DNA of 64,000 nucleotides, from assembly GCA_038373885.1 (NCBI GenBank), contig JAWZYV010019530.1, forward strand, positions 457,127 to 521,126, read 5' to 3'. The notes beneath the pieces were generated by a model. The model was not told the DNA's origin and did no database searches. It was given only the letters and a program-made list of their open reading frames with translations. Shown one piece after another: positions 19,201 through 61,349 of this stretch. A program made the translations under genes and the position numbers. Positions within the stretch are counted from its first letter, which is position 1. Each line of letters starts with the position of its first letter. This DNA comes from Cheiracanthium punctorium. Its lineage: Eukaryota; Arthropoda; Arachnida; Araneae; Cheiracanthiidae.

Positions 19201-19470
19201 TTACTGCCGCCATTCACTGAGAAAATCTGCAAGACTTTCAAATGAGGCTTTTGAATTATCCCGCAGCCTCCGTTCCTCAATGTTGTCTCATTTCCGTCTT
19301 CCTTCATGGACTTCTCTAGTGCACTGATAACCGCGATCTTTACGAAGACAGTTTTTTGTGCGTCACAGTATTTTTGTAAAGGCCCCACGCCACTGTATGT
19401 CCAACATTTCACTTTTCTTGGCTCTGGCTGTACTTGCCTTTCCACCAGATCTTCGAGCCTCCTTAATTTA

Positions 19471-20217: not shown

Positions 20218-20272
20218 ATTTAGTTTGAGTTTCTTCCAGGCGCGACATTCTCTTCTCCATTTCTTCTTTCAT

Positions 20273-20731
20273 TCATTTCCATTCCTCTTGGCTTTGCTTA
20301 ATTTCTAACTTTAAATATATTTTCTTGATTTTCTCTATTTTATCCAACCCGGTTTTCATCTCGTCGGATGCGGCATTCATCTCTTCCAACCCGGTTTTCA
20401 CTTCGTCGTATGCGGCATTCATCTCTTCCAACCCGGTTTTCACTTCGTCGTATGCGGCATTCATCTCTTCCAACCCGGTTTTCACTTCGTCGTATGCGGC
20501 ATTCATCTCTTCCAACCCGGTTTCAATTTTCTTCTGTAAATCGGATTGTCCGGCTTCAATTTTCTTTTCTAAATCAGCTTGCCCGGCTTCATTTTTGTCG
20601 TAGGTTGCTTTTACTTCTTTTCCGGCTTCTATCTCTTCTCGCTCAGTTTTCAACTCTGTTTTCATCTCTTCATGTCCGGATTTTATGTCCTTCAACATAT
20701 CCATGAGCTTTTGTTGAAATTCTTCTTCCAT
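20273..20731 (-). pseudogene. Gag N-terminal coiled coil with 14-residue tandem repeats
   Basis: The 152-residue frame starts MEEEFQQKLMDM and is almost wholly charged, with Glu, Lys and few hydrophobics in heptad spacing. The centre has about four copies of a 14-residue repeat (TGLEEMNAAYDEVK), mirrored in DNA as a 42-bp tandem repeat at about 20346-20525. More divergent AGQSDLQKKIE-type repeats lie N-terminal to it. It probably supports Gag assembly. Copies are nearly identical, so the array is young compared with the broken pol. Confidence 0.8.
20346..20525. repeat. 42-bp coding minisatellite in gag
   Basis: About four near-identical 42-bp units containing TCTTCCAACCCGGTTT followed by ATGCGGCATTCATC are arranged head to tail. 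The period is a multiple of three, so unit gain or loss keeps the frame. Confidence 0.9.
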
Positions 20732-20779
20732 TTTTCCGGTCTACACCATTCACTGGAAAAATAAAGCCTTTCTTTAGAA

Positions 20780-34408: not shown

Positions 34409-34445
<37 letters not shown>

Positions 34446-34462: not shown

Positions 34463-34516
34463 ATGGGAACTTCTTCGTCTAGCGAACAACCTGTAGCCGA
34501 ACCGTTGAATCAGGGA
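34463..34516 (+). CDS. cGLR exon 1 (residues 1-18)
   Basis: ATG at 34463 opens an 18-codon exon, MGTSSSSEQPVAEPLNQG, ending at GGA before the donor GTAAAT. It joins exon 2 in phase 0. The start fits an N-myristoylation signal (Gly2, small residues, Ser6). The donor is weaker than others in the gene, so this is the least certain exon. Confidence 0.7.
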
Positions 34517-37500
34517 GTAAATAAACTTTTTTATTCCACCTCTCCTTTTTTGTGCTTTCGTGTATTGCAACAGTCATGTGTTTATTTTCTTTTTCATGGT
34601 ATATTTTGTTAAATGTGTTCGTGGGCCATCTCATTACGCCGACAGATTTAAGAGCAACCCCACCCCCTCCTCCGAGAGTAAATAAATTACATAAAAAAAA
34701 AGGAAAGAGATCCCATTTTACTGTCATAAAATGGACATAAATATCAACTAGCCTCCCCCCATCTACAAAATTCCATGAATCCGTCCCTGTTTCATTATGA
34801 TATTCCATTCAGTACTTAACAGTTTTCCTGAAAGTTTTAATATGCAATCGGTTTATTTATTTATTTGTGAAAGAACATCTTGGGTTATAAAGCATTCAGG
34901 TTTTTTTTTAATTTTATTTTTTTATGAGCAGCTGCCTTCCATGTCAAGTGATCCAGTGATTTTTATGTTACTATTTTCATTTGCTTTTATTTTAAGTATG
35001 TGTAAACTGCTATGAAAGAAAATTTGGAGTCTCTCTCTCTCTATATATTTTTTAATCTCATTTTATTTTGGTATAACATGAGCTTAAAATTCCAAAACTT
35101 TTCAGATAATGTTGTTGTACTGTGCTTCACATAAACCATTATAAATTAGCATAGATTGTAGATAGATAAAAAATAAAAGTAGCATTTTATTCAGGAAATC
35201 ACAAACTTTAAAATGATATGTGAAATCATACCATTACAGTAATTGTAGGAATTAATTTTTAAAATTTAATGAGTAAAATTTTTTCAAAAAGTTATTACAT
35301 TTTCTCTATTTTTTTTTAAATGCTGCAAAATTTCAACTTAATAATCATATGGCCATACGGCCTAAAAAAAGGAATAAACATCTTCCTAATTTCATCTTTG
35401 CAGTGCATTAAATGTGTATATATTTTTTCTCTGCACTCTTTAAAAATATACATGTAATGCATATTTTTAAAGAACTGATCCTTTTGAGATCCTATGCTGA
35501 AAATTTTGCAGATTTTGAGGAAATAGAATGGAATTGTGATTTTTTAGGAAAAATTTTATTCATAATGATTTTCAAAAATTTAAGAAATATGCAATCTATC
35601 ATTTTAAAGCCCATAATATGCTGAAGACAGTGATCCTTTTATCTTTTAAATAATTTAGTTCTTGAAAGAATTATTTAGATTTATTGAGAGGCAAGTTCCA
35701 CCAAATTGGAATCTTCAAAACATGATAGCTTAGAAATGGCAACAGACAAAACTTTAACATTTTATATTTATACTACTTTTGGCCAGAAAACATAAGAAAT
35801 GACTTCAAAATTGAATCTCTTGGCATGTAATAATGCCCTAGAGTAGTGGTTCTCAACCGTTTCTCATTTGCACACCCCTTATTTAATTATTTTCATAAAT
35901 TGCACCCTTGGATTAGATTCTTGTCTAGAGGCAATAATAAAAGAGAAAATTTTAAATAGTGAGAGTATTATATTTCGTGGCTACATTTTAGCACTACAAT
36001 CTTAATAATTTTTCACTAACATTTTTTTAGAAAATCTGACTTGTTTTTCATTAGTTTTGTTAAATCGTATAAAAATGTGATTTTTGTAAATATAAGCTGT
36101 CACACTTTCATGACTTCTGTTATTTGCACCTTAATGGTAGCTCTGTAGCATTTTAGAATTTATTGCAGATGTAATCATAAAAATCAGTTTTTGATAACTG
36201 CATTATGTTTTATTTCAAAACCATGTATAAAGAGAATACTATATTTTGAATGAGTCCATTGCCTACACTGTTAATATTTATACTATCTGAATAACATTTT
36301 GCATTCAATTTTAGGCCAAAAAAGGAATTTCAAAAGGATTTCAGTCTCTGGAATCGCAAAGTTTACAACCAAAAAAACTAAAGTCACCTTGTGTGACTAT
36401 ACTTAATGAAATTTTGAGGGAGAAAGTGAAGCTTGATGAAAATCTCGAGAAAGAAAATAATGCCATCTTAAAGGAGTTTCTGGAGACATTTATTCCAGAA
36501 ATGAGAAAGCAAGATAAAACATTTGACAAGCTGTTTCGACGCATTTACTTCACTGGGAGCTATTTTTCAGACCTGCGCATTACAGAACCTAATGAGTTTG
36601 ATTTAAATCTTATACTAAAATTACCCTTCAAGGCAGCAAATGTACAAGTGAGTACTTTGTACTTTTTGTTAATTAACTTAATATACAAAGATTAATATCA
36701 ACCCTTTCAAAACATGATTAGGTAATTTCTAGTCATGTAATCAGTTTGGTATTCGGCTGAAAAGACGAAGATTCTGTTTGGCTGAATAACACAGTATTCT
36801 GCAGAATAGTTCAGCCAAATACTAATGCAAAATCAATTTTATTTATGATAAATAATATCGATTGATGCATCTAAAATAACACATATATAATTTATGTTCA
36901 TTTTTTACACAATACATGAAATTTAAATGTTTATTAAATTCTTAGTATAGTTTTATAGTAAATATACATTTAATAACAAATTGAATTTTTGTAATGTGCA
37001 ATACAAGAAAAAAATCTTACTTAAAAAATTAAAATAAATTTATTAATTTGAATTCTGTATATTGCAATGATGCTCTGATGCTAACATTGATAGCCTTCAG
37101 ATGACTGACAGTGAAATAATTGACACTGAATTAACAGTCTCAAGATACAGACTTTGGCACAGTAACAACTCTGAGGATGATCAAAAGATTGATGAAATAG
37201 CATGTAATGAAGGTTTGACAACAAAAGAGAAATATATCAGATTTGTAGAGCAGCAAACTTATGGTACTGATCAAATAATAATGACTAAAAAAAAAACCCA
37301 CAATGATTAGGATATTTAATGTCTAATTGCTGTTCAAGATATGTTTCAAAAAGTTTAAATTATTTGTACATAATCTCATAATTTTGCATGTCATATTATT
37401 CCCCTGTATTTTTATATGTTATACTAGCTGAAGAACCGTTCTTCGCATGGAATGGATATTGTTAAACCAACTAATACAAATGGAAAAGTGTTTTACAATA

Positions 37501-40500
37501 TTCGTTAGGCCAGGGGCATAACCAAGGGGGGGGGGGGGGTTAGGGGGTCATAACCCCCCCCCATGAGAAATTTTTGCCATACAAAATGTATATTCTTCAC
37601 TACATTATCACACACACATATACATATATGAGTTGCAGTAGTCGTAACCCCCCCCCCCCATGAAAAATTTCTGGCTACGCCCCTGCATTAGGCATATTCT
37701 ATCTACACTTGATTTTTTAAAATAATGTTTGGAATGTGCACCATGATCCGCGAGTGAAACATATTTGTTTTAGTAGCTCTATGAAATACTTCTTCAAAAT
37801 TGAATCTACATTAAAATTGTCTACTAAAACTTTTTTTGATATCCTCGCCAGAAATATTATTACTATACTCCATTTTTACTGACAACGAATATAAACGCCA
37901 ACACTTTAATTAAATAAACAGTAGCATTTGCAATTTCTCGACAAATATGGACAATATCGTCAATCTGGTTCCAGTTTTGGGGACTTATTTTTTTATCCTA
38001 AACTTGGCAATAAATCACCAAAAACAAAAAACCTTGGCTAGTTTTCACATTTAATCTGGCAGCCCTTGAAAAGTGATCCGCCCTTTCAACAGGTAGACAA
38101 AAATCTTTGTCTGAAATTAACAGCACTCAAGAGCTAAAAAAATACGTGAAAAACACCTTTTTTTGTAAACTACCCCCTATTGAGATCGATTTTTAAAAAA
38201 CCTTGAAAAAGATTTGTAGGAATTTGAATTCGATACTTTTTAATGCAAAATTTTTATGGCTATCTTCATTTCCTTTCAATATAAGATGAGATTAAAATTA
38301 TGTTTCGGCTTTTCACACCAGTTTGGACATGAATTCTAAAAAACCTGAAGATGAATTTAGGTGTTTCTGTTAGCTAGATTTTAAAGCAAGAACTTATGTC
38401 TATCTATTTTTACCTCTGAGATATGAAAGAAACGTGAAAAGAATGTTTTAGACCCTAACCCCCGTTTGGGTGCGAATTTCAAAAAACCCTGAAAATGATT
38501 TTTAGGTATTGCCACTTGTATTATATGCATGTAATACATGTGGATTTTATGCACATCTCTTTTAATTTGTGCCAAGTAACACAAAAATATTGTGCAAGTA
38601 GCCATGAAAATTTCAGTTTTCCACATTATCATTGAGAATAGATAAAACTCTCTTGTTAATAATGTTAACCTGCAATTATATCCTTGGTTTCAGATTCATT
38701 CTATATCTAGCAAGTTTGTATCCAGAAAAAAAAATTTCATAAGGGTCCATTCAGTAAAAAGGCAGAATTTTACATAAAAAGACTTCATCATCATTTTAGT
38801 AACAAAAACCAAAATTTCAGGAGGGTTGTGGATCCCGCCTCTTAAATACATCCTTGATATCTAGTAAAATTCTTTTATTTTGGTGTAGTTTAAGGTGCTT
38901 TCTCAGATATAGATTCTACATTTTTTTCCATGTATGTGTGTTTGGCTTTCTTTTATTCCTAATTTTACTTAAAGTTTAGCTCATTCATTTTCAGTATAGA
39001 GGGTTTTTTTTTATACATTATGGTCACAGTGTCTAAATGCGTTACAGTTTCTCGTAGATTTGTCACATAGGGAATATTCAGTATTTTACTGAGGATATTT
39101 ATGTAAAATAATTAAAGTACAGTAGAAGACCTAAAATCCGCCAACCCGAAATCCGCAAGGCTCTAAGATCCACACTGCCTGTTCAATGTAAACAATGAAA
39201 TCTGCCCTGCCACCTGCAAGTTCAGAAAACTACGCTATAGCCACAAAGTAAAACTAAATAAGCTATTCCCACTTGAAAAAAAATAATTTAAGAGTTTGTG
39301 AGCTCTGTTGATAACATTGATATCCTTCAAATGACTGACAGTGACATAATTAACACTCAGATATGGTCACATGACAGACTGACACAGTAACAAGTGAGGA
39401 TGATCAAAAAGTTGATAAAATAACATTTAATGAAGGTTAGGCTCTTAGAAAGAAATATCTTAGATTTGTAGAGCAGCAAAGCTGTGTTGCAGAACAGAAA
39501 ATAATGGAAAAAAAACTATAATTAGAACATCTTAAAGTCCTAAACTACTATTGAATATACATGTTTAAATAAGTTGTACTGTAATCTCATAATTTTGTAT
39601 ATTGTATTGTACCTCTGTAATTTTATATCACGATTCTGATTATAAGTAACATGATTTGTTTATCTTTATTTATTTTATTTTTTTTCTGGGTGGGGTGAAG
39701 GAAAATAGAATCAATTTATTATGACCCAAAATCTGCAAAATTCTAAAATCTGCACAAGGTCCGGAACCAAGCTGTGCGGATTTTAGGTCTTCTACTGTAC
39801 TATTATATAAATTTTACCTTAATTTATAGAAATTAAATTAATATTGCTTAGGGCAAGTTGAAGGAGCTTGAAAGTGAATGATGTGTATTCAAATAGAAGT
39901 TGGTCCACCTAAAAGTTGTTAAGCTAGAGGGAATGCTGTGTACTTTGTTCCCAAAATGTGTATCTTTATTTGCATCTAATTTTAATATGATTTTTGTGGT
40001 AAAATTTAACATGATATAAGAACATCAGATTTATGCATTATTTGTAATTGCATTCAGGCATGTTGACTGTTTTTTTAATGTTTGCAAGTTAGATTTTCCT
40101 TGCTCAAGTCAATTTACATTCATGATTTTTATGCTAATTTTGAAATATCAGTAACTAAATGCATATAATTAACAGATATATTATTTTTTAGGTTATGCAT
40201 CTTTCACAAGTTCCTTCATATGTAAAGTATTACGTCCCTGACAGCAGTGGCATTATAAATGAAAATGGTTTAACGAGGCTTTTTGAGGATGGATATTTAA
40301 TTCCTCACAAAGTACGAATATGGATTCAAAGTATAGTCGATAAGGCTTTGAGAAATTACAAGTCATACCCAGCTAACGTTGTTAATGTAAGTTCTGTAGT
40401 ATTGAATATAGTATATGTCAGTGATAATTGAAATGCAAGAAACATAATTTGTATTAGTTGTGTAAAGCTTTTTCTTTTTAAATTAGCCCCTTATAAAAAT

Positions 40501-43500
40501 TTATTTGTATCCTCCACAGGTTGTATCTGAAAGTAATGCTGCTTTTTCACATTAAATTCAAATAAATTTTTGCAAGTTTTTAATGACGAAGCAGTTGTGC
40601 CTACACAAAGAATTCAACTTTGTTACATTTTAATGCATGAATCCCATTCATAACCATTGTTTACTTTCAAAAAAGGTGTGTGAAAAAAGGGGAATGTCAA
40701 ATTAATAAATGCCCTGAACATTGGTATAAATAGGCATGTAACATTGGGGGTGGGGCAACATGTAACATTGATGGGGCAAAGTATTTCCTTTTGTAGAAAA
40801 ATTCATTTTTCAAATAGGTTTATATCTGAATTATCTTGATTTTTTTGGGAAGGGGGATTGCCCCCCTCTTTGCCCATAGTAAATTACACCTAGGTCCTAA
40901 AATTGATTTTTTATATTTGTGTGTACTCATTTTGCATGTAAGTCATAGCAACCGCAGTAAATACCATGAGATTATCCCAAATAGCCATGAAGGTCAACAG
41001 TTTTCATGGCAAGTTTAATTGAGAATATTTAAAACTTACATTGCTGCTTGAGTGTTTCTTCCAATTTGAGATAAATTTTAAAGTTACATATGAAATTTCA
41101 GAATGCTCAACCATAAGGAAAGTAAAGCACGTTTTGTTTTCTTTTTGTTCTTCTCATAGCATTACCGATATAATTTTTTTAAAGCAAAAAATCTTAACTG
41201 CCATTTACCATGATTAAGAAAATTTACAATTTTGTCCTGTGCTGAATTTTTTTTTTTTTTTTTTTTTTTTTTTGCTATCAGCTCATTAAAGCTGGCTATA
41301 TTTTATTCTGCCAATTTCAAAATTTTATTTTGAGCTCTGTTGAGAGATGTGCCCCCGTTACAAGTTTTGGAAAACCCTCTTATCGAGCATCAGTGTAACG
41401 AACCTTACAAATTTTGTGCTTCAGTAGTTTTGGTTATCCGAAATATTAACTTATGAAAAAAACGATACTATTGTCCTACTAATATTTCTTTTGTCATGAA
41501 TGGAGGGGGATGAAAACGTTAACCATTTCTAAACATGTTTAAAAATGTTTGCTGTTTACAAACATTTTGTAAAATAAAGGGAGTATATATTGAGTATTCC
41601 TGATTGCTGTTTTTATGTACAGTATTACACAGTATTTTATTTATTTATTTTTTTTGGTGCGTGTGAAAATTAATACTAGGCCTTCTCTCAGCTAATCAAA
41701 AGAAATATCAACTTTTTTTTTTCTTTTTGATTCATATCAAGTCAATAACAGTCCCAAAATGCATATTCATTTTCATACACAAATTTTTGGGGGGAGGGGC
41801 TAGTTTTTGCAAAAAAGTTGTATTTGATGTCAAACAAAATGACAATTTCAAGTGAGATTTTACTCTAAAGCAATATTACATTATTTTGTGGGAGGAGCTA
41901 ATTTATAATAAATGCTGATTTCATTTAAGCAAAGTGTACAGTGGAGCAAAAAGCTACCCTTTAGCAATGCGTTAGGGAGAAGGAGGATCAAACTCCCTAG
42001 TGCCTTGCCACTGTGCAGTGTGCATACTCTAATAAATACCCCCCCCCAAAAAAAAAAAGAAAAGAAAACATATTGTTGCCATTGGCATAACTGAACAAGG
42101 CCATGTTCCCTTCGAAGCTTTTAGTTCTTTCTAATAAGAATCGATTTCCTTTTGAAAAAGTCAGAGATTGAGATCACAAAGGGAGAGGGGCTTTATATTC
42201 CTTTTTAAAATTGTCAAGAATTTTTATCCAGTAATGCAAATATATTTCTGCTGTTCACAGTTTGTAAAAAATTTTACTAATGAAAATTTTGATACTGATC
42301 TAGTATCATCAGGAAATCAATCAAAATTCACCAATATATGAAAAATGTTTAGAAAAATAAATAAAATAATTAGACATAATAGAAGTGATTGTTATTTGCT
42401 AATTTCTCTCTCGCTCTCTCTTTTTAATGTAGGGTTTCAAAGACTTAAATTTCATTTTTTATTATTTTCCTATTGATATTTAGAATAGAAGGTTAATATT
42501 ATGAAAAAAATTTCATTTTTTATTATTTTCCTATTGATATTTAGAATAGAAGGTTAATATTATGAAAAGTTATAGTTAATATTATGAAAAAAAGAGCAAA
42601 TGTAAAATTATCTAGAAAGAAAATACTCAAAGTAAAGTTAGTATAATTTTATTGTTTGCAAAATATTTTTGAATTTTCAGAAGCAGACATGCTTGTATCT
42701 TGATAATTTGGTTCATCCATTGTGGCTATCATTTATTGCTTTTACTTTTTTATAGGGATGCACCGAATACCATATTTTGCCAAATAACAAATACTGAATA
42801 TTCGGTTAAAATTCTAACCGAATATTTGGCCGAATACCGAATACTTGGTTAAAATTTATTAAGCTTATTTAACCATTATTAAACTTTGATTGCAATGATT
42901 AATTTGATTAGTCTGTTCTTAAACAATATTTCATATTTCATATGGTGTAAAACTTAATAAATTTAAATGCTGCAAAATTTAATATCCAAGTACTTCCTTT
43001 ATATATTATTAATAACATTTTTAAATATTACTGAAATGCTGGTAATTTTTTTACATGCATATTTTATTTTAAAAAATTAGCAGTTAATTAACTTTACATA
43101 TTTATGAACACTTAATGTTATGAGGTTTTTTTTTTTTTTCTGGTTACTTTTAAATTTAAATGAGTTAGTAATAGCAAGGTTAATGTAATGTGTCATAAGA
43201 TTTAAGAAAAATTGAAAAGCAACAAAATTTAAATTTAGCATCTGAGTATTTTCTCTTACATTAAAACCAATTTTATTGTGATATTAGTTTTTGATGCGAT
43301 TGTGGCAACGTTACACTAGGGCGATCTGCCAAGGATGGGGTGGTCTTGATAGGTGAACTTTCTAAGGGTTTCTAACGCTTATTCACGTGTGATATTAGTA
43401 AGTAACAACTTGAATTAATTTAGTACTATGGTACGATACCAAATCTTTCATTCATGATATAAAAAATATGTATCTGTTTACCAATTGGAGAATACTTAAA

Positions 43501-46500
43501 TTTGTTTACTATTCGGTTGCCGAATATTTAAGTATTCGCCGAACTGAATATTCGGTTTGTCTACCGAATAGGCAGTATGCCGAATACCAACCGAATATTC
43601 GGTGCATCCCTACATTTTACCATTGTGAAATTATCTGATCCATTCATTAAGTTTGACTCTCATCCTTGATTTGAGGTTTTGCACGTACACCATTAATTTT
43701 TCTACTAATTACCTAAGACAGTTGTTCATAATATGAAGTCAGATAATCCTGTTTTCATAAATGTCAAAAAAGTGTTTTATTTATTTTCTTTTTCTCATAT
43801 TTTATGACTATACATATAATGTGTGTGTATGCATATCTCTATTATGATTTTATTAATATTGCATTTTCTAATTAATAAATTATTTTTAGGTAAAGTGCAG
43901 TGGATCAGGCCCTGCCAGAACTATAATATTAGAGAAAAGAAGTGGTGTTATAGAAATTGATCTTGTACCTGCAATTAAGCATACTGTAACGTCTGCGCCT
44001 CCTGGTATTGATAGCAGAGTGTATGCAAAAGTTAAGCACGATCTCAAAGTAATGCAGTTTTATTAGATGTTTTAATTATTTTTATTAAGTGGAAGTCCTA
44101 CGAAGGATCATTCCCTTTACTCAATTCTGTTACAATCTTATCGAACCGTTCATTTACAGGGTTTCTTTCTACAGACCTGGAAAGTCAGGAAAAGGAGTTT
44201 TGGTCAGGGATTTGGGAAAAAAGTCAGGGAAATTAGCAGAAATTGAAGAAAGGTCAGGAAAATGCAAGAAAAATTGAATTTTGCGGTAAAATCAAGAAGA
44301 TATTTGCTGTTTGAACCATAGAAATTGTTTGAAGTATAGAAATTGTTTTATTTTCATTTTCTCATTCAACCTTATAAATAATTTTAAAATGTGCTCTTTA
44401 TGAGCATATCTTGTGTAGTTGAAATATGCTTAATTTTATCTTAAATTATTATCAAACGTGGTTTTTGTTGGAATCCAGTTTGTCAAATAAGCTTCTTATA
44501 TATATTAATTTAATATTATTATTTGTAAAAAAAGGGGACAAAAATATAAAAAAAAACTATTAATTAAAGGATGTAATGATAAAAATAGAAACACAAAATT
44601 CGGGAAAGCACGCTAAAGTCAGGGAAGAGCGTGATAGATGTCAGGAAAAGTTAGGGAAGCCAAAGCTATGAAATCTGTAGAAACCCTGATTTAGAAAGGA
44701 CTCCATATTAAACCTTGAGAATTGGTGAATAGGTATGAAAATGATCACTTCATAGCATATGTGATGCACATCGCATATTTATTATTTTCTATAATTTCTT
44801 CCTCAGTTTTAAATTTAATTTGTTGAAAATCACTGTAACTTTTTTGTTTAATACTCATTTTCCCCTTACTTTGGCTTTCAAAATTCTTTTCACTCTCTTT
44901 TCTGTTGGAGTGCAGCCTTCTATTCAGAAATAATTTAGAGAGTAAAAGGCAAAAGCTTGTCTAAAAGTAGGTCTCGCCCTCTTCTCATGATTTGCTCCGA
45001 AGGAAATCTTTTGGTATTAAATATTTCTTTCCCTATCTTTTGGCATGTCTGGTTTTCAAAATTATTAATCTTGTTTATTCCTAACAATCTAGGTGCCATG
45101 TGCAATGCAAAATGTTCTTGCCATTTTATTTGAGAACCAATTTGTTTGCCTACTTCTGTTTTCACCAGAGAAATTCTTTTGGCATTGAACGTTTAATTGC
45201 TTCGTCCAAGAAGTGCAACAATGATAATTTTTTTTTAAGCCTTTTCTGTAATATCTAATTAAATTCATTTTATATGAAGTAAATATTTTATAGGTTAATA
45301 TTATATATTCTGAATAAACAATTAATTATTAATCAATTAGAAATTAATGTTATTTATTAGTTATATTAATCATCTTATTTTGTAATTTCTCTTTGAGTTT
45401 GGAAGGTGGCAACAGGTGACACATTCACTTTGGGATCGAATAATGTTTGCTTATTATATTATCAAATCAATTTAGCTGAGAAAAAATATGATTTTATGAA
45501 GGGTACAGTAATTTCTAAGTGAACCACCAGTCTAGAAGATTGTAACATAGCAAGTATAGGGAATGATTCTTATTAAGATTTCGTCATGAGTGTTGGCAAT
45601 TGTCTTTTGCACTTATCAAAGTAAACTGATCAAAATACCAATCTCTCATTGTAGACAATTTTTAGTTCATTAAGTGTACAGGTGAGAAAGTGCCTTTTGG
45701 AATTACTTAAATGTACCTTTAGGATTTATTCTAGTCCTTTTTTTAAAAGATAGAGAAAATCAGTATACAGTAGCTATCTGAAATCTGCACACCTTGGGAC
45801 CAAGGGCTTTGCAGATTATAGAATTATGTGGATTATAGATCATTGCTTTATTTACATTTTTCCTTACCTTAATTATAAAGAAATATATTATTAATGAATA
45901 GGGCCCTACAAAATATGCGGATAATTTTTTGGAACTATGCGGCATCGATGCAGTAGTTTATTGGGATTATGCAGTATTTACAGAAATTTATTGAAGTAAT
46001 GCGGATGAGTAGGGAAGTAACTACATTAAAAAGAAAAGCAATATTACAATTAAAAACAAATAAGTGCGTCTTTCTTTTGCACTAAAGTTTTATTAAAATA
46101 AAGTGATGTTAGCCCAGCCTCCGATGCTTCCTTCAAACTCTGCCTTTATTTTGTAAATATTTGACCGTAACATGAAATAGCACTTTCATAGTCTACAGAA
46201 TTAGTTAAAACCCAGAGTACTTGCTTTAAGTATTAGTTCTGAAAACCTCCGTGAAACATCCTCTGAATTCCAAATCTTACTAAGTTTTCAGTGGAACATT
46301 CCTTGACATACCCCTTGTAAGCAGCATACTCAAGATTTATTTGTGAATCATAAAATCCTGGAATAATTTTAAACTTCTTCATCGACATTCATGTTGGACA
46401 AATGGTCTGGGTCTCAGGCTGCTTTCATGAATTTCAAACCAGTTTTTGAAAACTTAAGTCCTCGCTTTTCAGAGACGCTCATTTCTGGTCAATAATAAAG

Positions 46501-49500
46501 ATTCAATTTTGCTACTGTGGCATTTTCCCCATTTATGGTCCCAAATTGGGATACAGCGGGTTTTTGAAGAAAATATGTTGAGAATAAATGAAGAAATAAA
46601 AAGTTTGCCAAAAGGTGCAGTCTTTTGCAGAAAGTTGTAGTTTATGCAGAGAATTGTAAATTATGCAAAATTCCGCATTTCCTGCATTTTTACATATTTT
46701 ATAGGGCCCTATTAATGAATAAATTAAAGGTAAAAACTGATTGTATGCTCACACTTAAGTTTAATTAATTAAAAAGGTATATAAAATACACTAAAATACT
46801 AAATTACATAATACGTAATAAGTCCACAAAGATATGATCAATTACCTAGTAAAGTAATTTGTTTTATTTAGTTCTTTGTTATAAAATTAATTAAATTTTA
46901 TAAATTAAAGAACAAATGAGTTTTGCAATATGAATTGCATTATTATAGTGTTTATGAATACAAAAAGAAAAGGAAACACATTTACATTTTGTTTCTATAT
47001 GCCTTTTGCAATCTGAAATAGTTAATAATTCTACAGTTTTCTTTCTAAATTAACTATTTTGCTAAAAATGTTCTTCAACTCTAACAAAAACCATTTAAAT
47101 TTTTATTCAACCTTCATTTATATTTTGTCAATAAAATTTCTATTTCACCTTCATTTGAAAAAACAGTCCTGTGCTACATGCTTAATCCATTTTGCTTTGA
47201 GTTTGAATCAAAGCATAAACTACTCAATCCGAACATAAAATTTTTTATATTTCATCTTCACTTAAAAACCAATCTCATGTAACATATTGCTATGTACATT
47301 AATCTTCTAAGCTTGAATCTGAACATATTAGCCAAAATTGTAAAATAGAACAATAACCAAAGAAAAAACAGCCATCCTAGAGAAAGTAATATTTTGTGCA
47401 GGACTGTTTTTCAGGGATTTTTTACTACTCTCGATAAAGTAAGACAATTTTGAGGATCAGAAAGGTTAATATTTCTACAACTAATTTTGAATCCTTTAAT
47501 GTACATACAAAGGCTCAAAATAAATTGCGGCAACCAAGGCAAATGCTGGGAGATTAGTTCAAATAACCATGATGATTCACAGTTCTTGCAGCAAGTTTAG
47601 CTGTGAGTATTTGAAACTTTTAATAAATGCATTTTTTTTTCTGTCTATGCATTTTAAGGTTGCGTATGAAATGGCTGAATGCTTACAAGGAAAGTTAAGC
47701 TTTTACAGTCGAACCTCGTTAAGACAAAGTCAAAGGACAGAAAAAATCTTTTCGTACAAACCGAAATTTGTGTTAATGATTTTTTTCTCTTAGTGTTATT
47801 GTGTTATTGTTTCAATTTTTTAAGAGTTATGCGAAGAACTGCAACTTCAATTTTCCATGATTGCAAAAATTTGGGATTTTTCACAGTAAGCCAGTTTTTG
47901 CATATTAGTACTGCTTTTGCACATAAAAGCTTTGTTTTTGCTGCCAGCTTTTAAAAACTCAGCAGTTTTTGCTGCCAGTTTCAAAATCTTATTTTGAGCC
48001 TCAATACATACATATTACTATTTTTTTAAACTTCTTTAAACATTTATGTTTTTTATTAATTTTCAAATTCTTTTACCTTCATAGTGTTTTCTTGTGCCAA
48101 AACCGTACCAGCCATCTAAGCAGGCTCCAGTAAATTCAGCTGAAAGAAATCGTTTATGGAGAACTCACTATCCCGATGCCGAAAGTAAAATAATTCATAA
48201 TCTTGGCTGTGTGAAACCTGTGATAAAACTTTTGAAGGTTTGCCAAATCAGTTAAAACTATTTTCCTCACATTTTGCCTAATGATTAGAAACCTTTTAGA
48301 GTCACAAAATTTTTCCCTGTTAAAAAATTTGTCAAAATTTCATTTTAAAGCTTTAGTTCAAGAATTTGACTGTACTAGGTATGTGTTTAAATTCTCTTTT
48401 CAAATGTTGATTTTCCTTTTGATATTTTTTAACACTGTATTTTAAAGGAAGGTGAAAATTGATTTTTAAGAGCTAAAATTAAATGAAATTTTTTATAGAA
48501 TTATAAGAGTTTTAAATTAGACTTAAGCTTATTAATTGTGTAAAAAGTAATGAAATACTTTTTACACAATTAGGTATTTATATTAGATAATTATAGCAAG
48601 ATTGATAATTTTTATTAAGAATGTTTTTAAAGTGTACTTTTTTAGTTAATTTTTGTATTTTTAATTCATAAAAACATAAGATCAATGCACCAAAACCTGA
48701 CACATTAACCCCTTAAGTGGTTTGCCCGTACAGTGTACGTGCTACCCAAAATTGGCCTCAACTGGTTTGCCCGTGTACGTGTATCTTCTGATGTATCTGA
48801 GTTTTTCACAAAAGCTTAAATTGTCTCTTTAAAGACTTTGAAAAAAAAAATTCTTTTAACTGTCAGTTTTTACGAGACAATTAATTCTTAGTTATAGCTT
48901 TTTTTTTTCTCTCTTTTTGTCTATGTTTTGACTTTCTTAGCCTTTTTCCCTCGTCTACGCATATTCCTGCCATACTTTTGAAATAACAAACAGAAGGAAT
49001 TTTTTCATATCCTTTTTATTTTTTAGTGTAGAATTTTTATTTCTTCCAAATGGCAATTTTAAACCACTAATTGTACTGGATGGGAAACTTGTTCTTTCTA
49101 TGACTTGTTCCCCCTCATTCCAATTCTTGTCTTCAGTGTCAGGTCATTGCTAGCCATTAGGTCCACTCATCCTTATTAAAGTAACTTGATTTTCTGTTTC
49201 TACTTTTTCATTCTTCTCACCTAAATCTGTAATTTGTCCAGGAAAATATTCTCTCTCACAATTGACATCATTTATTCCTAATTTCTGACCTTCTATTTCT
49301 GAAAAGATTTCCTTATGAAGATATCTCTCTGAGTCAATGCATATTGGACTATCTGTATCTTCTGATGTATCTGATTTTTCACAAGCTTAAATGTCTCTTT
49401 AAAGACTTGAAAAAAAAAAAAAAATTCTTTTAACTGTCAGTTTTTACGAGACATTAATTCTTAGTTAGCTCTTTTTTTTTCTCTTCTTTTTGTCTATGTT

Positions 49501-51555: not shown

Positions 51556-51599
<44 letters not shown>

Positions 51600-54500
51600 C
51601 TCTCTAATTGTCAGACTCGAAACCGAAAACAACTGCAACGCATTTTTTAGACCGCAAAAGCATCAAGCAAGTGATGTGTTTGTATGAGGGAAAAATGGGG
51701 ACGCATATCAATCTTGACGGGAGGGTAAAAGACAAAATAACTTACTTTGTAACTTATGGTTTAGGACCGTCTTTCCAAGAACAGTTAGTTAATTCTATCA
51801 GAAAGTGCGACTACTTCTATTTCTCAATAGATGAAAGCTTAATCCTGTATACTTCAGTTAAAATTGATTTCAAGAAGTTGTACAAAATATGCAAATATAA
51901 AGACAAGGGAGGGGGCATTGTGCAATTTCTCAAAGTAAAATGCAGTGGTCAGGAATTTTTTACCCTTGACCTCCCAAAAGTCAGGAAAAAGTCCGGAAAT
52001 TGACTTTCAGAAATTTGGTAGACACCCTGTACAGCAGCATCAGCATTATTGACACCTAATCTTAAAAATAATCAGCTAATCTTAAAAATGGTTAACAAAG
52101 AAAAAGAGACACCATAAATTTATCTTATACTGCTCTTCATTTCGTTAGATATTCTGCAGTAATACAATAATAAATTGTAAATAATATTTTCAGCTGAAAT
52201 TTTCTTTCAGATCTTCTAAAAATCCATTTACTCCACACTTTTATGAACAAATAAATTGCCACTTCTAAAACATAGCATGGAAAATGATTCCCTTTCTGAC
52301 ACAAATATCTACTTTTATTTTCTGAAACTAATTTTTAAGAAACTAGGAACCAAAGTCCCTAGATTCGCTTTTCGTATGAGGCATTCGACCAGGGACTAAA
52401 TATTTTGGTTAATTGTATTAATTTTTAAGCAAAAATACACTATAAACACACAGTTACAGTTAATGAAAACATTTGTGAACATATTAACTGATTCTTGACT
52501 ATGACAATTCTGATTTTTCTGTTTTGATATTTTTTACTATAAATGATGCTACTGAAGGTTGTCTTGTACATTAAGCTTGAGAATTCTATGGAGTAGGGCT
52601 GGAGCTTGTTAAACTGGATACATCTGATATGCTTTCATCAGAATCTTGTTCACACTTTCAAAGTTTGGGGCATTTTTCAAAATGGTTTCATATTCTATGT
52701 GCTTTAGCACGAATGCTATTAGAGCACTCTTTACTGCACATTCTAACAATTTCAGCATTTTTAGTTAATTCTTCAGAAAATTTTCTTTTTGGATCTTTTT
52801 TTCTACCACATTTATATATAATTGTACCCATCTTTTATTTCTTCCTTCTTTCTTTCTTGACTAAGACTTAAAGAAGAACATAATTTTCTTTCTACTTTTA
52901 AGTATATTAAATGAAGCATTCGACTGCATTGCTGATGCAACTCATTATGGCTGAGAAAAGAGCAGAGAAATTATAAAATCACCTTTTAGTTTTGGTTCAG
53001 AATTTTTAGTTATTGTTCCTGTTTTAAATTTTGTTTTATGTTCTCATTCAGTGTTAGAGAAAAACTTACTGTGACTGTGCATAGAATTGGCTCTTGAATG
53101 AAGATGAATTAAAGTGAATTTTAAGTTAATTTTCCTTTTTATAGTTTTGGTTCAAAATTTTAGTATTTGTTCCAGTTTTTAATTGTGATTCAGGTTTGAA
53201 GCAGAACTGATTTTTTTTAGTATGCATCAAATGACTGTTTTTTAAATGAAGATTAAATGAAAGAATTTTTCATCTCCAACAAAGTTTTAGAAATATAGTT
53301 CATTTAAAAGTACAATTGTGAAAGTGTTTACTATTTTCTCAGTATCATATTGTTATATGTGTTAGGTTCGACACACTATTACTATTAATAAACAAAACAA
53401 AACATTTATTTCACAAAAATGTACAACGTAACTTACAGTTACCGTACTTCGTATATATATTTAAAAACCTTCTTTCAATGCATTTTCTTCCTAATCATTT
53501 TTAAATTCCATTACTTATCCATTGCCATTTCTGAATTGTTATTGCAATCATCGAAAACCATGCTTCTGTTCTAAATGTTTGATAATAAAAATAGCATTTA
53601 CATTTGACCATCCTGAAATTTCAACTGTCCTCAGTTGAATTATATCAGTACATTACTAATTGTATTACATCATTTTCATCAGTCCTATTGTAAAAGTTGG
53701 AACATCGGCCGCATATATGTATATTTTTTTCTTTAAGAGATTTTGTCGGCCTTATAACTAGTGCAAGTTTTTTTTAAATAATATTTTCCAGTTCCTCTTC
53801 ATAAGCTTCACATGATCTTTAATAAGTAATTCTGTCGAAGGCTTATCATTATTAAAATCTTTCGTAAAAATATCTTCAAGCAGAGATGATTCTTCTGAAA
53901 ACTGTAACTGAGGAAATGAAGGAGCTATTTGATAGAGGTTTAATGTAGTCTCTTTTAAAAACATTCTTATCTTGAAGTTCAGACTCACAAATAAGACAAT
54001 TATACACTCCACAATATTTGCACTTAAGTTGGCTTTTTGGAACTTATCATTGCCCGCAAACGATACTAATAATATCTTGCTGAGTTATTGATGGTGATCA
54101 TTCCACAGTTCTCCCCGCGTTAGCATAGTTCCATATTCACTTTCGCTGTTGTCACTGTCTGACTTTGTATAAAAGAACAAGGCATTTTGTGTTTATCTAC
54201 AATGGAAAGGTTTGGGATGTTTCTTTTTCAATGGTTCATAATCTTTGTCAAGTTGTAGCAAATACGGAGGTGGATCTCTATTACTGGTAGCATTGTCTGG
54301 ATTTGAAAATGGTCCATTTTTAACCTCCACTTTTTTAACTTTGATTCTACACGTTAGACAATCTTCCACCAGCTTTAAATCCATTTCTACGATGGCATTT
54401 TCTAAATAATTAGTATCAAAATCAGTACTTACCAAATCTACGACATGATCTGGCAATGAATCTTTCAAACCCATGTCTAAGTTTTAAAAATTTGTTTCTA

Positions 54501-57500
54501 CATCTTCAATAGAGAGACATTCAGGTACTGAAACTCCATTTTCTGATGCACTAAAAGTTACACTGCCATCATTAACAAAATCGATATCTTTTCCACCTGA
54601 AACTGTCATAGACTGAAGTTTGTCATTTACGTTGTTTCATAAAGAATCAGAACTGCTTTCACTGTCACATGACCTTGCAAAATTTTCAATACACTCCAAT
54701 ATTTGACCTCTATGCATGTAATAATTTGTAGGAGTAGTATTATCAGTATTCTTTAATAACTCTGGAACTGTATAATTTTGGTATTAAGTATCCAGCTTTT
54801 CAAGCATTTATCATACCCATGTAAAGACCAAAAATTAGTCGTATCAGTATTTTTAGATAATTCTTCCTGAATACTAAGATCTGCAGTTTTTGAACAGTCC
54901 GATTTATTATTTTCTATTTCACCTTGCAGGCAATTTTCATAGTTTTCTTCACATTCACCAATAATGACACTTTCTTGATTTGCATCTTTACTTCCTTCCT
55001 CCTAATCAGAGTAATAGTTTTCATAATCACCCTCTTCTTGATATTCATCCTCATAGGTTTCTTCTCTGTAGTTTTGATTTTTGTAGGAAGAATAGTACCC
55101 ATTATACTCATTGATGTGGTTTTTACGAAGGCAATCCCGTACTTTTCATTAATTCTTCACCCTCTTCATCATTAACATAAGACATTTCAGGGTCTTCAGA
55201 CGATTCCGTTAGAGCTTCATCATACACGTTTTCATTATGTTCTTCATTTTTATTGCATTTTTTTTTTAGGCACTCATTTTACATGGTTTCATACATATGG
55301 GTTTTGATCTGTCAATTTCGTTAATATCCATCTCTATTAAGATTGTACATCCTAGCTCCGAAATATTCAGTGCGAAACAGTCTCTACAGTCATTCAACAA
55401 ATTAAGTAGTTCTTCTTTCTTCTCAGCGTTTGTAAGCAAAACAAAACATTTATTTCACAAAAATGTACAATGTAACTTACAATTACCGTACTTTGTACAT
55501 ATATTTTAAAACACTTCTTTCAATGCATTTTCTTCCTAATCATTTTTAAATTCCATTACTTATCCATTGCTATTGCAATCACCAAAAATCAAGCTCATGT
55601 TCTAAATGTTTGATAATAAAAATAGCGTTTAGATATGATATATAGAAATTAAAGTCTATAAAAACAAATATAAAATTCCTTTATTTTATATTTTAAATAA
55701 AAATGCTTAAGTTTATGCTGTATTATAAACCCCTTTTCTCATGTACAATGTAATTAAATTAATTATTTGATAACTAATTTATTATTTTATTTTGTTAAGT
55801 TCAGCTTCTTGGTTAATTAGTGGCGACAGTGGCTGTTACTTTTTTTTTTTTTTTTTAAATAGAAAGATTATTATGGTGAAGTGTTAGATGTCTTCCCCTC
55901 TCTATTTTTTCCAAATGCTAATGAATTTATAATAATCAGCATTCACCTCTGTACATAATGGTACAAGTCAGAGATTATATTAAATTAGCTTTCAAAATTC
56001 GTAACTACATCCTTAAAAAGAAAATTTTAAAAATGTGTCTAGTTTAGAAGCAGGAAAAAGAATAAGAGTGTTCTAAAACCTGACACCATGGTGTGAGGTT
56101 GAGGGACAAAAGTTAGGAGTCTGTACCTTATACCTGAAATCCTCTTTCGAACGTAGTTATTGAAGTTATATGTTTGATAATAATAACCAAAAGTTATTTC
56201 ACTACAAAAATAAATAATATCAATACTTGTGGGCCTCACCATGGTTGAGTGGTTCAGACACTGAACGTAACAGGTGGCTGAAGTGTGAAGGTGCCGAGTT
56301 TGGGCCTGTGGCCTGACTGTTGATAAGTCCTCTGTCCAAGACACACACCCCACCTAGGCAGATGCCCCTCGCATAGGCTTGCCACTTTACTCATTAGTAC
56401 TTGTGGCTTGACCAACAAGTTAACTATACTGTCTAAATCTTATTATAAGCACATTCAAATGTTAATAATTTCATGTAGCACAACAGCTCAATAGCAACAG
56501 CAGTCCCAGCGTGATTTTTTTTTTTTTTTTCTAAAATGGCATTAACTTTGACATTTCACCAATTTGCTTTGAAAACATTCAGAATAGTATATTACATGAA
56601 ATAATATTTTATTATTTAAAAAGTAAATACTGTTACCGCCAGTATTTTTATTATCTTGTTTTTATTGAATGTAAATACCATTCTCTGCCTATGTTTTAAT
56701 TGTCTTACTTTTTATTCAAAACAGTTGCTTAGAGACAAAGAAAACTGGAAAATCCTTGCATCCTATTATTTGAAGACAGTTGTACTGTGGATGGTGCTGG
56801 AGAATTCTAATTCTGATTACTGGAAATCGGATCGTATTGGAGAGAGATTTTTAGATGTAAGAGTCTTTTGATTATTCTTTACTTTTATGAGCCAGCTATG
56901 ACTATGTAATTTTGATTTATTTTTGTGCATGAAAACAAGGTATCAGGAACTTGCAATAACTGTTGAGCCAAAAATGTTTGTTGGCTTCAGGAGATGTGCT
57001 GGAAAGTAATGTCTTTTTTTCTTTTTACGTCAAGTTCAAACAAATTTTCAAAAACAAACAGTTTCTCATTTCAAGTAAGCTGCACGTAAACATAAAATTT
57101 ATATTTGTTGTATTCTTTGTTGCAAAGCAAGAACTTTCTGGATCATTTTGTGTATATGTGAAAGTTTTTTTATTATTATTTTTAGGCATATCTGATTATT
57201 GTATTGTACAGCAAGAATTTAAGAATTTCTCTTTTTTTTTTCTTTTTGAGAAAAATATGTCTAAAAAACATTTTGACCCCCTGCCCCTCATAGGTTACAA
57301 ATTTTGGAAAATGCTGTCTAATCTTCACTTATGTAAAAAAACTCGCATACTTGTTCAGTTCCATTTTATTAGCTTCAAAGGTTTTGGCTTGGCGAAATAT
57401 TGACTTATGGGAAAAAGTCATTACTTTTCAGTCCCCCTAATACAAAAATTATGATCCAGTCAAAGTTAATCTGATCATATCGAAGTTTCAATATCTTTAT

Positions 57501-60500: not shown

Positions 60501-61349
60501 ATCTCTAGTGTCATAGGATTCAAAAGTGAATTTCATTTTGTATTTATCTAATAATTTTTACTGATTTGGACAATTAAATATACTTACGGTTGTTTGTAAG
60601 CTGAAATTTATTTTTAAGGTCAAATTTACCTACAAAATCTGATTGAGAAATGTGTTTGTGAAATATTTATTGCCACTAGTTAATGAAGATTATAACATAC
60701 TATTTCTCAGACTTAAAACAGGAGAATTTGTTAAAATAATTTTAATATTATTGATAAAATTAATAGAAAGTTACCTAACTAAGACAAGAATCTTTCCAGA
60801 GTAATCAATTTCTTTTTATTAATGCTTGTAGTAAATGTATGATTATTAGTATAAAATCTTTTGCCAGCAAAATTAGTTTTAACTTTTCTTAATACCTTTC
60901 AAATTTGTATGCAAGAAAAAAAAACATTTTCTTCCTATAAATTGCTAGGAATGCAAAACATCGGTACACCATGCAAATCTACTGGATTTTTTCCCTGACT
61001 TCTAATTCAAAAATAAAAGTTCATTTAAGAACATTTAGCTCTTACTCTGTCAAAATGTCATATCAACATTTTTTTTTTTTTTTTGAGTTTAATGTATATT
61101 TTAAATTTTATTTCTGTTTATTAAATATATGTATATTTTTAAATTTAGGCTCTGGAAAGTCTTGCTGAATGTGTTGAGCAGCGAAAAATCCGTTACTTTT
61201 TTAGTTCTCGATATAATTTGGTGGAGAAACTTTCACAAGCACAAGCAAATATTATACGTAACAGATTGCGTATCATTATAAGAGATATTGGAAATGATAA
61301 TAATAAGTTGTGGGCTGTATTTGATTGCCGACCAACTTTTAACTTATGA
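34463..61349 (+). CDS. cGAS-like receptor (cGLR), complete seven-exon gene, 408 residues
   Basis: Joined exons encode a Mab-21/cGAS-type nucleotidyltransferase, expected to sense foreign nucleic acid and make a cyclic dinucleotide for STING. Exons are 34463-34516, 36315-36647, 40192-40386, 43890-44048, 48085-48237, 56725-56856 and 61149-61349; every junction is phase 0 with GT-AG sites. Residues 97-122 hold the GS motif (G99, S100) and PNEFD with acidic pair E112/D114, spaced exactly as in vertebrate cGAS. The third acidic residue is D218 in VIEIDLVPA. LVPK (250-253) and WR (272-273) fit the spine region, and a helical C-terminal lobe follows to 408. The vertebrate zinc thumb between HN (285-286) and C289 is absent. 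No piece of the family core seems missing, so the model is probably complete. Product and ligand are inferred. A non-catalytic Mab-21 homologue is less likely because all three acidic residues are kept. Confidence 0.9.
34517..36314 (+). other. cGLR intron 1, no other gene
   Basis: AT-rich sequence. A hAT (Charlie-like) end, TAGTGGTTCTCAACC, occurs at about 35845, with only weakly similar flanking sequence. Several short frames show nothing recognisable. Confidence 0.7.
36315..36647 (+). CDS. cGLR exon 2 (residues 19-129), catalytic GS and PNEFD motifs
   Basis: The exon runs from acceptor TTTTAG to a consensus donor GTGAGT. It encodes a basic linker, the long helix ILNEILREKVKLDENLEKEN and then the core IYFTGSYFSDLRITEPNEFD with LNLILKLP. 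This is the most diagnostic segment of the gene. Confidence 0.93.
37101..37310 (+). pseudogene. Tigger/pogo transposase C-terminal fragment
   Basis: The frame has MTDSEIIDTELT, an acidic stretch and IACNEGLTTKEKYIRFVEQQ, matching the helical C-terminal end of pogo/Tigger transposases (EQQ motif). A decayed copy of the same segment lies within 39120-39797 at about 39315-39500. No catalytic DDE region is present. Confidence 0.65.
37511..37685. mobile_element. hAT MITE, copy B (inverted relative to copy A)
   Basis: Ends are CAGGGGCATAACC and GGCTACGCCCCTG. Flanks CGTTAGGC and CATTAGGC agree at 7 of 8 bases. The interior matches copy A (24812-24987) in reverse orientation, with G- and C-runs. 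It lies in cGLR intron 2. Confidence 0.9.
39120..39797. mobile_element. pogo/Tigger-type element with TA target duplication
   Basis: Exact inverted ends CAGTAGAAGACCTAAAATCC and GGATTTTAGGTCTTCTACTG are flanked by TA on each side (39118-39119, 39798-39799). It is 678 bp and carries a broken transposase C-terminal segment (about 39315-39500). It is a deletion derivative of a Tigger-like element. Confidence 0.88.
40192..40386 (+). CDS. cGLR exon 3 (residues 130-194)
   Basis: It lies between acceptor TTTTTTAG and donor GTAAGT and has 65 codons. It encodes VKYYVPDSSGIINENG, LFEDGYLIPHKVRIWIQSIV and a helix running to NVVN. It occupies the region between the first catalytic strand and the third acidic strand, as expected for the family. 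Confidence 0.9.
42449..42567. repeat. Tandem duplication, ~61-bp period
   Basis: Two nearly identical adjacent copies run from TTCATTTTTTATTATTTTCC to GGTTAATATTATGAAAA. A third partial ATTATGAAAA follows. Confidence 0.92.
42753..43612. mobile_element. hAT-like element with TAGGGATGCACCGAATA ends
   Basis: Exact 17-bp inverted ends TAGGGATGCACCGAATA and TATTCGGTGCATCCCTA flank an 860-bp AT-rich interior with subterminal TTCGGT repeats. Flanking 8-mers agree at only 5 positions, so the target duplication is decayed or not the right unit. No transposase is seen. Confidence 0.82.
43890..44048 (+). CDS. cGLR exon 4 (residues 195-247), third catalytic acidic residue
   Basis: It has acceptor TTTTTAG, donor GTAATG and 53 codons. 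VKCSGSGPARTIILEK leads to GVIEIDLVPAI, where D218 takes the place of the third metal-binding acid. It ends VYAKVKHDLK, directly continuous with exon 5. Confidence 0.92.
44157..44688. mobile_element. hAT-like element with CAGGGTTTCT...AGAAACCCTG ends
   Basis: CAGGGTTTCTTTCTACAG and CTGTAGAAACCCTG are inverted ends. Subterminal GTCAGGGA/GTCAGGAAA motifs recur on both sides and are shared in type with the element at 51393. No clear target duplication was found. Confidence 0.7.
45899..46711. mobile_element. hAT-type element with exact 8-bp target duplication
   Basis: Ends TAGGGCCCTACAAAATATG and CATATTTTATAGGGCCCTA are inverted. TTAATGAA flanks both sides exactly (45891-45898, 46712-46719). It is 813 bp, and the interior shows no intact transposase. 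Confidence 0.9.
47511..48001. mobile_element. TIR element with AGGCTCAAAATAA ends
   Basis: AGGCTCAAAATAA and TTATTTTGAGCCT are exact 13-bp inverted ends. The interior matches about 40930-41345 in intron 3. A pogo-like end (CAGTCGAACCTCGTTAAGAC) at 47707 suggests a nested insertion. Confidence 0.65.
48085..48237 (+). CDS. cGLR exon 5 (residues 248-298)
   Basis: It has acceptor CTTCATAG, a weak donor GTTTGC and 51 codons. CFLVPK and the LWRTHYPDAESKII block match the family spine (LVPK, WR.S...E..I). The zinc-thumb insertion would lie after IIHN; here only LG separates it from CVKPVIKLLK. Confidence 0.9.
48533..48572. repeat. Perfect 17-bp hairpin, 6-nt loop
   Basis: Arms 48533-48549 and 48556-48572 (TAATTGTGTAAAAAGTA) are exact reverse complements around ATGAAA. 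Confidence 0.9.
48780..49630. repeat. Direct repeat pair flanking a short acidic minus-strand frame
   Basis: About 48780-49065 and 49348-49630 are clearly similar (GTATCTTCTGATGTATCTGA ... TTTTTACGAGACA ... CATATTCCTGCCATACTTTTG), differing by many small indels. Between them a minus-strand frame (about 49150-49390) encodes roughly 75 acidic residues including SDTSEDTDSPICIDSERYLH. Nearby TTAACCCC at 48706 would suit a piggyBac-type end, but no partner was found. Confidence 0.6.
51380..51421. repeat. Perfect 19-bp hairpin at the end of a hAT element
   Basis: Arms 51380-51398 and 51403-51421 (TTCGGTGTTACAGCAGGGT) are exact reverse complements around GTCT. The inner part overlaps the element end CAGGGTGTCTACC, which itself contains GGGT/ACCC. 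Confidence 0.93.
51393..52029. mobile_element. hAT-like element carrying a transposase fragment
   Basis: Inverted ends CAGGGTGTCTACC and GGTAGACACCCTG bound a 637-bp element with GTCCGGAAA/GTCTGGAAA subterminal repeats. A long T-run (about 51560-51592) lies inside. Flanking 8-mers match only in part, perhaps because the left edge was remodelled by the hairpin. Confidence 0.8.
51608..52003 (+). pseudogene. hAT-type transposase fragment
   Basis: The frame has ITYFVTYGLGPSFQEQLVNS followed by IRKCDYFYFSIDESL. This resembles the segment found in arthropod hAT-like transposases and their domesticated relatives, where FDESL follows YGLAPYF-type text. Only about 80 residues match. The rest of the catalytic domain and the dimerisation domain are absent. 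It lies within the TIR element 51393-52029. Confidence 0.65.
53389..55636 (-). pseudogene. Decayed element/retrocopy with ~200-bp direct terminal repeats, unrecognised product
   Basis: Blocks 53389-53606 and 55437-55636 are similar direct repeats (ACATTTATTTCACAAAAATG ... AAATGTTTGATAATAAAAAT). Between them the minus strand reads as a long acidic protein broken by stops and frameshifts. Readable parts are an N-terminal EDEYQEEGDYENYYSD stretch, VVDLVSTDFDTNYLENAIVE (54193-54474, ending KPFHCR), and CKYCGVYNCLICESELQDK (about 53940-54015 in another frame). The Cys pattern suggests a zinc-binding part. I do not recognise the family. It could be a retrocopy with a duplicated 3' region or an LTR-type element. 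Confidence 0.5.
56223..56370 (+). mobile_element. tRNA-derived SINE, related to the copy at 24449
   Basis: GGGCCTCACCATGGTTGAGT gives a box A-like head. GGTGCCGAGTTTGGG further on resembles box B. The tail ACACCCCACCTAGGCAG is similar to that at 32260-32280. It lies in intron 5, about 350 bp before exon 6. Confidence 0.6.
56725..56856 (+). CDS. cGLR exon 6 (residues 299-342)
   Basis: It has acceptor AAAACAG, donor GTAAGA and 44 codons. It encodes LLRDKENWKILASYYLKTVV and then LENSNSDYWKSDRIGERF, matching the helix with the SY.LKT pattern and the following W...R.G.RF of Mab-21 proteins. Confidence 0.92.
56857..61148 (+). other. cGLR intron 6, no other gene
   Basis: It contains the dispersed TTTG-run repeat at 58211-58400 and a related block near 58520-58680. 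A short motif shared with 52365-52400 (TCGCTTTTCGTAT) is at about 58838, and a CATACCTGCCAACTCC end-like block is at 60133. The 146-codon frame at 56963 is low-complexity and has no recognised product. Confidence 0.65.
58211..58400. repeat. Interspersed repeat with TTTG run, second copy
   Basis: ATATTATAAATGCGAAAG is followed by GTTTG repeats and a TAGGCTACTTAGAATTTT end. The order matches 27245-27460. Confidence 0.55.
61149..61349 (+). CDS. cGLR exon 7 (residues 343-408), stop codon
   Basis: Acceptor AAATTTAG and 66 codons lead to TGA at 61347. It encodes LESLAECVEQRKIRYFFSSR, YNLVEKLSQAQANIIRNRLR and a short tail ending FDCRPTFNL. The Y.F...NLVE pattern is typical of the family C-terminus. 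Confidence 0.92.
   Translation, partial: ALESLAECVEQRKIRYFFSSRYNLVEKLSQAQANIIRNRLRIIIRDIGNDNNKLWAVFDCRPTFNL

Follow-up and report, generated by a model that had tools for sequence, protein, structure and literature searches.

A spider cGAS-like receptor gene with a predicted N-myristoylation signal on its first exon

A 64,000-nucleotide stretch of Cheiracanthium punctorium DNA (contig JAWZYV010019530.1, positions 457,127–521,126; hereafter the window) holds a seven-exon gene on the + strand, at window positions 34463–61349, that encodes a 408-residue protein resembling the cGAS-like receptors (cGLRs). The question raised by this locus is whether the product is an ordinary soluble member of its family or an enzyme held at membranes by a fatty acid. 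Profile, sequence and tree analyses, together with the fold of a close relative, support a spider cGLR with a complete catalytic core, as the original prediction for this locus had proposed. The N-myristoylation signal on exon 1 was absent from that prediction and was found in the present analysis. With a probability of roughly two in three, we consider the product to be a nucleic-acid-activated cyclic-dinucleotide synthase that is tethered to membranes by myristate, in parallel to human OAS2.

The N-terminal leader

Relatives were collected by a search of 5.8 billion proteins, which returned 29, and later comparisons use 76 relatives. The closest, P0001, is an unlabelled protein from a 1,883-bp contig, transcript-like in size, with 59% identity over 100% of the query. 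The closest labelled relatives are spider proteins (50–54% identical), several of which already bear the name cyclic GMP-AMP synthase-like receptor, so the gene in the window adds a member to a family that was known before. A second cGLR group, made up of labelled spider proteins P0025, P0026, P0027 and P0029 and the unlabelled P0051, has a long N-terminal extension that opens with Cys-rich, zinc-finger-like sequence and places the Gly-Ser (GS) pair of the activation loop past residue 220 in all but one of these five proteins.

Leaders were compared across 22 spider-side rows. Left out were the partial P0017 as well as P0019 and P0020, which are alternative isoforms of genes already represented; P0020, too, opens with MG (MGSNWS). 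The GS pair lies at residue 88 or beyond, behind an added leader, in 16 of these rows and at residues 57–72 in six. Outside the spider side, it lies at residues 45–72 in 28 of 30 rows, the exceptions being P0051 (267, long extension) and P0073 (9, cut-short sequence); tick, insect and millipede rows begin near the core, and the scorpion rows P0023 and P0030 at the core.

The leader of the window protein opens with MGTSSSS; the 54-bp exon 1 encodes its first part, and exon 2 the remainder. This start fits the N-myristoylation consensus (PROSITE PS00008 type), which consists of an N-terminal Met-Gly (MG), a small residue at position 3 and Ser or Thr at position 6. An MG start is present in 12 of the 22 spider-side rows, and every one of these has Ser6 (MGxxxS); the hexapeptide MGTSSS (34463–34480, + strand) thus shares Gly2 and Ser6 with all 12 MG-starting spider-side rows, the query included. 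Because positions 7–16 of the leader drift, with no residue in more than 7/12 rows, Gly2 and Ser6 form a conserved island. Five of the 12 rows (P0001, P0005, P0016, P0022 and P0046) are transcript-like contigs, which makes it unlikely that the MG leader is a habit of gene models, and MG rows lie on both sides of the tree split between P0016 (with P0046, 65% identical to it) and the main group. As judged from these sequences, the exon 1 signal probably serves to anchor the enzyme in cell membranes through a fatty acid.

Among the 52 other relatives, a start of this type occurs once, in P0036. This unlabelled insect-side cGLR starts MGAIPSNVS, where rows with similar starts read MSxVPSNVS; P0048, P0049 and P0052 start otherwise like P0036, with Ser replacing Gly, and P0036 may represent a separate gain of the signal, or chance. 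MG without Ser or Thr at position 6 occurs in P0059 (unlabelled) and in the Ixodes rows P0067 and P0069.

Several features of the same comparison weigh against a lipid anchor. Ten of the 22 spider-side rows have no MG start, including P0010, P0012, P0013, P0014, P0015 and P0045, in which the N-terminus is short. The other four are leader-bearing rows with longer models: the motif sits at an internal Met in P0011 (Ala6) and P0021 (Ser6), an internal MG followed by Pro6 fails the motif in P0003, and the long model P0008 lacks it. The non-MG rows could reflect either varying gene models or leaderless paralogues, and P0045 (MAASSS) is perhaps a genuine case of the latter. Since the 12 MG rows are related by common ancestry, they do not amount to 12 independent events. 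Finally, Trp5, present in 8/12 of them, may point to another role of the N-terminus.

These points bear on the alternative that survives best, namely that the protein is an ordinary soluble cGLR, both sensor and cyclic-dinucleotide synthase, whose MG start stays unacylated and has some other function, such as that of an N-degron or of a tail that binds nucleic acid. A cGLR enzyme needs no leader, because the 28 non-spider-side rows with GS at residues 45–72 lack one of the spider type, and the survey of Li et al. (PMC9980059) gives 87% of cGLRs as stand-alone enzymes. The identity of Gly2 and Ser6 in 12/12 MG-starting rows, while their neighbours in the leader drift, argues against this account, which we regard as unlikely, at about the level of one chance in a handful. 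By comparison, we lean, a little less firmly than for the protein itself, towards the broader view that spiders evolved a class of lipid-anchored cGLRs (with a leader on its own exon, N-myristoylated, placed at viral replication membranes and convergent with OAS2) beside soluble, leaderless paralogues.

The catalytic core

The protein matches both Pfam domains of the family, PF03281 (Mab-21 nucleotidyltransferase (NTase), residues 101–286) and PF20266 (Mab-21_C, residues 289–382), with 78.3 and 73.7 bits against a cut-off of 24.1. The hallmarks that had been listed for an active cGAS-like enzyme are all in place: GS at residues 99–100, PNEFD at 110–114 (with E112 and D114), the third acid D218 (DLVP), LVPK at 250, WR at 272 and a C-terminal lobe. 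The GSY...PNEFD stretch, GSYFSDLRITEPNEFD, is encoded at 36555–36602 on the + strand (GS, 36555–36560; E112, 36594–36596; D114, 36600–36602). It aligns without gaps from GS to EFD and so has the same spacing as cGAS, as had been claimed, and GS, E112, D114 and D218 are invariant across 25/25 aligned rows.

A Mab-21/cGLR profile search had been set beforehand as a possible refutation, and did not place the protein in a non-catalytic Mab-21 group. Similarity ranks the beetle cGLR far ahead (E-value 5.4e-38) of MAB21L1 (1e-5), MID51 (0.02) and MB21D2 (1.1); on this ranking and on the catalytic residues, we reject a developmental or scaffold Mab-21 protein. The best match in the PDB, by sequence for the query and by fold for a model of P0001, is the Tribolium castaneum cGLR 7lt2, titled dsRNA-sensing (dsRNA, double-stranded RNA). 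The structure check proposed for this locus thus gave a cGLR fold, with the beetle cGLR nearest, for P0001; structural homology, a criterion for cGLRs, accordingly belongs to this 59% identical relative rather than to a model of the window protein itself. Neither the query nor any of the 76 relatives contains the vertebrate Zn-ribbon pattern H-x5-CC-x6-C.

Li et al. (2023, PMC9980059) give the cGLR motif as h[QT]GS, X8–20, [DE]h[DE]h, X50–90 and a third h[DE]h. The first half is present in the window protein as FTGS, 11 residues and EFDL, and is matched by 23 of 30 tested sequences, the literal mismatches being P0017 (partial), P0018, P0020, P0025, P0026, P0028 and P0029. The third acid (IDL, D218) follows 101 residues on, outside the literal X50–90, a point against the proposed reading. 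The Tribolium cGLR, one of the queries in the study by Li et al., itself has X of 118 and GGS rather than [QT]GS, and the published spacing can therefore not be taken to the letter.

The invariant residues also bear on a second alternative, in which the protein is a catalytically silent Mab-21 scaffold. A crustacean precedent exists in shrimp, where Mab21 is reported to bind IKK-epsilon without nucleic-acid-induced cGAMP synthesis (PMC12928593). The shrimp proteins are, however, described in the same report as lacking essential nucleotidyltransferase residues, whereas the window protein has GS, E112, D114 and D218 and is closest to cGLR, not to MAB21L1 or MB21D2; we regard a silent scaffold as very improbable.

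Exon structure and surroundings of the gene

The proposed structure of seven small phase 0 exons, none above 333 bp and together giving 408 residues, was recovered at the same coordinates. All six introns are GT-AG, every exon length is divisible by 3, and the joined frame runs to a TGA stop without an internal stop. Intron sizes, calculated from the exon coordinates, range from ~1.8 to 8.5 kb, and the window is AT-rich (29–42% G+C per 4-kb step). The further claim that annotation based on open reading frames (ORFs) would miss the gene holds for ORF callers but not for annotation generally, as relatives in several spiders have gene models.

Exon 1 (34463–34516, residues 1–18) starts MGTSSSSEQ, carries Gly2 and Ser6 of the signal and ends at the donor GTAAAT. 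The 333-bp exon 2 (36315–36647, residues 19–129) holds the rest of the leader with QPKKLK, the spine helix, the activation-loop GS and the catalytic E112 and D114. It is followed by exon 3 (40192–40386, residues 130–194; NTase core), exon 4 (43890–44048, residues 195–247; the SGSGPARTI strand and D218, at 43959–43961), exon 5 (48085–48237, residues 248–298; LVPK, WR and KPVIKLLK), exon 6 (56725–56856, residues 299–342; LLRDKENWKILASYYLKT, C-terminal lobe) and exon 7 (61149–61349, residues 343–408 and the stop; end of the C-terminal lobe), all on the + strand. AATAAA motifs follow exon 7 at 61463, 61529 and 61760. Upstream, a (TA)16 repeat (34411–34443) ends ~20 bp 5' of the start codon, and a TTTTTAG, a possible acceptor, lies eight bases 5' of the ATG at 34463; there may be an untranslated exon upstream of exon 1.

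When the 76 homologues were searched against the window by tblastn, exon 2 was matched by 74, and exons 3, 4, 5, 6 and 7 by 37, 26, 54, 63 and 22, respectively; exon 1 was matched by none (0/76), because it is too short. A single match fell off the exons (P0040 at 56541–56648, just 5' of exon 6, 21 bits), and the same search saw no tandem cGLR paralogue within the 64-kb window. In an alignment with ten relatives the protein crosses five of the six junctions. P0001 alone has a gap exactly at a junction, where 2 residues differ in length after residue 129, and gaps of one residue are found near two others; the first junction falls in the variable leader, which P0010 lacks. Exon 1 was examined by scoring 350 upstream plus-strand ATGs, each without a stop in its first nine codons, against the N-terminus of P0001. 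The ATG at 34463 ranked first (score 40; runner-up 13), and was also top when each ATG took its best of ten N-termini (40 versus 24). Of the columns invariant in 14 relatives, the window protein keeps 73/77, compared with 73/78 in its nearest relative P0001; since these columns are retained, the gene appears to be under constraint like a working gene, and a decayed copy is rejected.

Mis-joined exons or a decayed pseudogene might be suggested by the long AT-rich introns, by an exon 1 below the length detectable by tblastn and by exon joins that are read from the genomic DNA of this species, but the canonical splice sites, uniform phase 0, open frame, aligned junctions, top-ranked exon 1 and retained columns make this account hardly credible.

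Elsewhere in the window, 19 distinct hand-picked ORFs were compared with Pfam, a survey that small exons of a neighbouring gene could escape. A broken Ty3/gypsy-like retrotransposon copy lies upstream of the cGLR gene (17676–20740, - strand), with RVT_1 pieces in two frames, one at 1.3e-9 and the other, at 2.2e-5, under the cut-off, besides a weakly matching gag-protease-like segment. The RVT_1 match in 17741–18055 was the only one at the curated cut-off; others, such as a coiled-coil in 20273–20740, were below it. Within intron 5, a 131-residue open frame (51608–52003, + strand) has no Pfam match at 0.05 and resembles, by eye, a hAT/ZBED-type transposon protein. Intron 3 contains a 61-bp unit perfectly duplicated in tandem (42447–42568; two copies, 100%), perhaps very recently or as an assembly effect. 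No tRNA genes were found in the window, and no Rfam family matched it at gathering score.

Mechanism and comparison with known systems

In the mechanism that we propose, Met1 would be removed and Gly2 N-myristoylated, and the catalytic lobe would be held at the cytosolic face of a membrane by a disordered tether some 35 residues long, with the basic QPKKLK at its end. A single myristate usually needs a second membrane contact, and the QPKKLK patch could provide it. Foreign nucleic acid would then bind and open the active site; we favour dsRNA over double-stranded DNA, because the Zn-ribbon is missing and the nearest solved relative is dsRNA-sensing. E112, D114 and D218 would direct the two-metal joining of two nucleotides into a cyclic dinucleotide, the presumed activator of STING or of an equivalent receptor. 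Through its anchor, the sensor would sit at sites of RNA-virus replication, as reported for human OAS2. What is known of the family supports binding, active-site opening and synthesis; for this protein we infer the enzymatic activity, the ligand and the STING link. In a tick, two STING-like and 12 cGAS-like proteins are described, none of the 12 with a Zn-ribbon, and the activation and products of tick cGLRs are called open in that preprint (PMC12869556). Nineteen animals, ten of them arthropod species, are reported to combine a cGLR-like sequence with a lack of detectable STING (PMC10732462).

Membership in this family, for which 3,020 animal members are listed (PMC9980059), is ordinary; the new part, if real, is the lipid-anchored architecture. 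No report of a myristoylated cGLR was found in the literature searched, supplementary tables lying outside that search, and the stem "myrist" is absent from the main text of the main cGLR survey. No paper directly on spider cGLRs was among the matches listed for spider or chelicerate cGLR, STING and cGAS, as judged by title and start of abstract. If confirmed, this would be the first N-myristoylated cGLR, as far as the literature search reached, and exchanging a single residue of the leader (G2A) offers a way to ask whether membrane binding is required for a cGLR to see viral RNA.

Among named proteins, the window protein is most like those of Uloborus diversus (P0003), Trichonephila clavata (P0004), Argiope bruennichi (P0011) and Parasteatoda tepidariorum (P0010), with 52–54% identity, the same domains and the same catalytic residues; their names as cyclic GMP-AMP synthases or synthase-like receptors were assigned by their sources. 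The third acid follows after 102–104 residues in these four and after 101 in the window protein. Unlike the latter, which has MG at its start, P0010 lacks the MG leader, and P0003 (failing the motif) and P0011 have MG at an inner Met only. The Tribolium cGLR 7lt2 resembles the window protein in that the printed alignment shows nothing inserted where vertebrate cGAS has its Zn-ribbon. This alignment runs from chain residue 4 against query residue 46, indicating a construct without the spider-type leader. Vertebrate cGAS, by contrast, has the Zn-ribbon, and cGAS rows are 17–21% identical to the P0001 model. S-palmitoylation of cGAS has been reported, in an account that names myristoylation for ARF1, not cGAS (PMC12057185).

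The closest parallel to the proposed anchor is human OAS2, a related NTase sensor. Enzymes of the OAS branch make 2'-5' oligoadenylates. Because OAS is a different NTase branch, a membrane anchor in the window protein would be convergent, which, if true, suggests that the OAS and cGAS antiviral branches reached membrane anchoring independently. In OAS2, both Golgi localisation and antiviral action are reported to depend on myristoylation of the N-terminal Gly, and G2A is reported to abolish the specific Golgi localisation and reverse HCoV-OC43 restriction (PMC13372824), whereas in the window protein the corresponding feature is a signal predicted from sequence.
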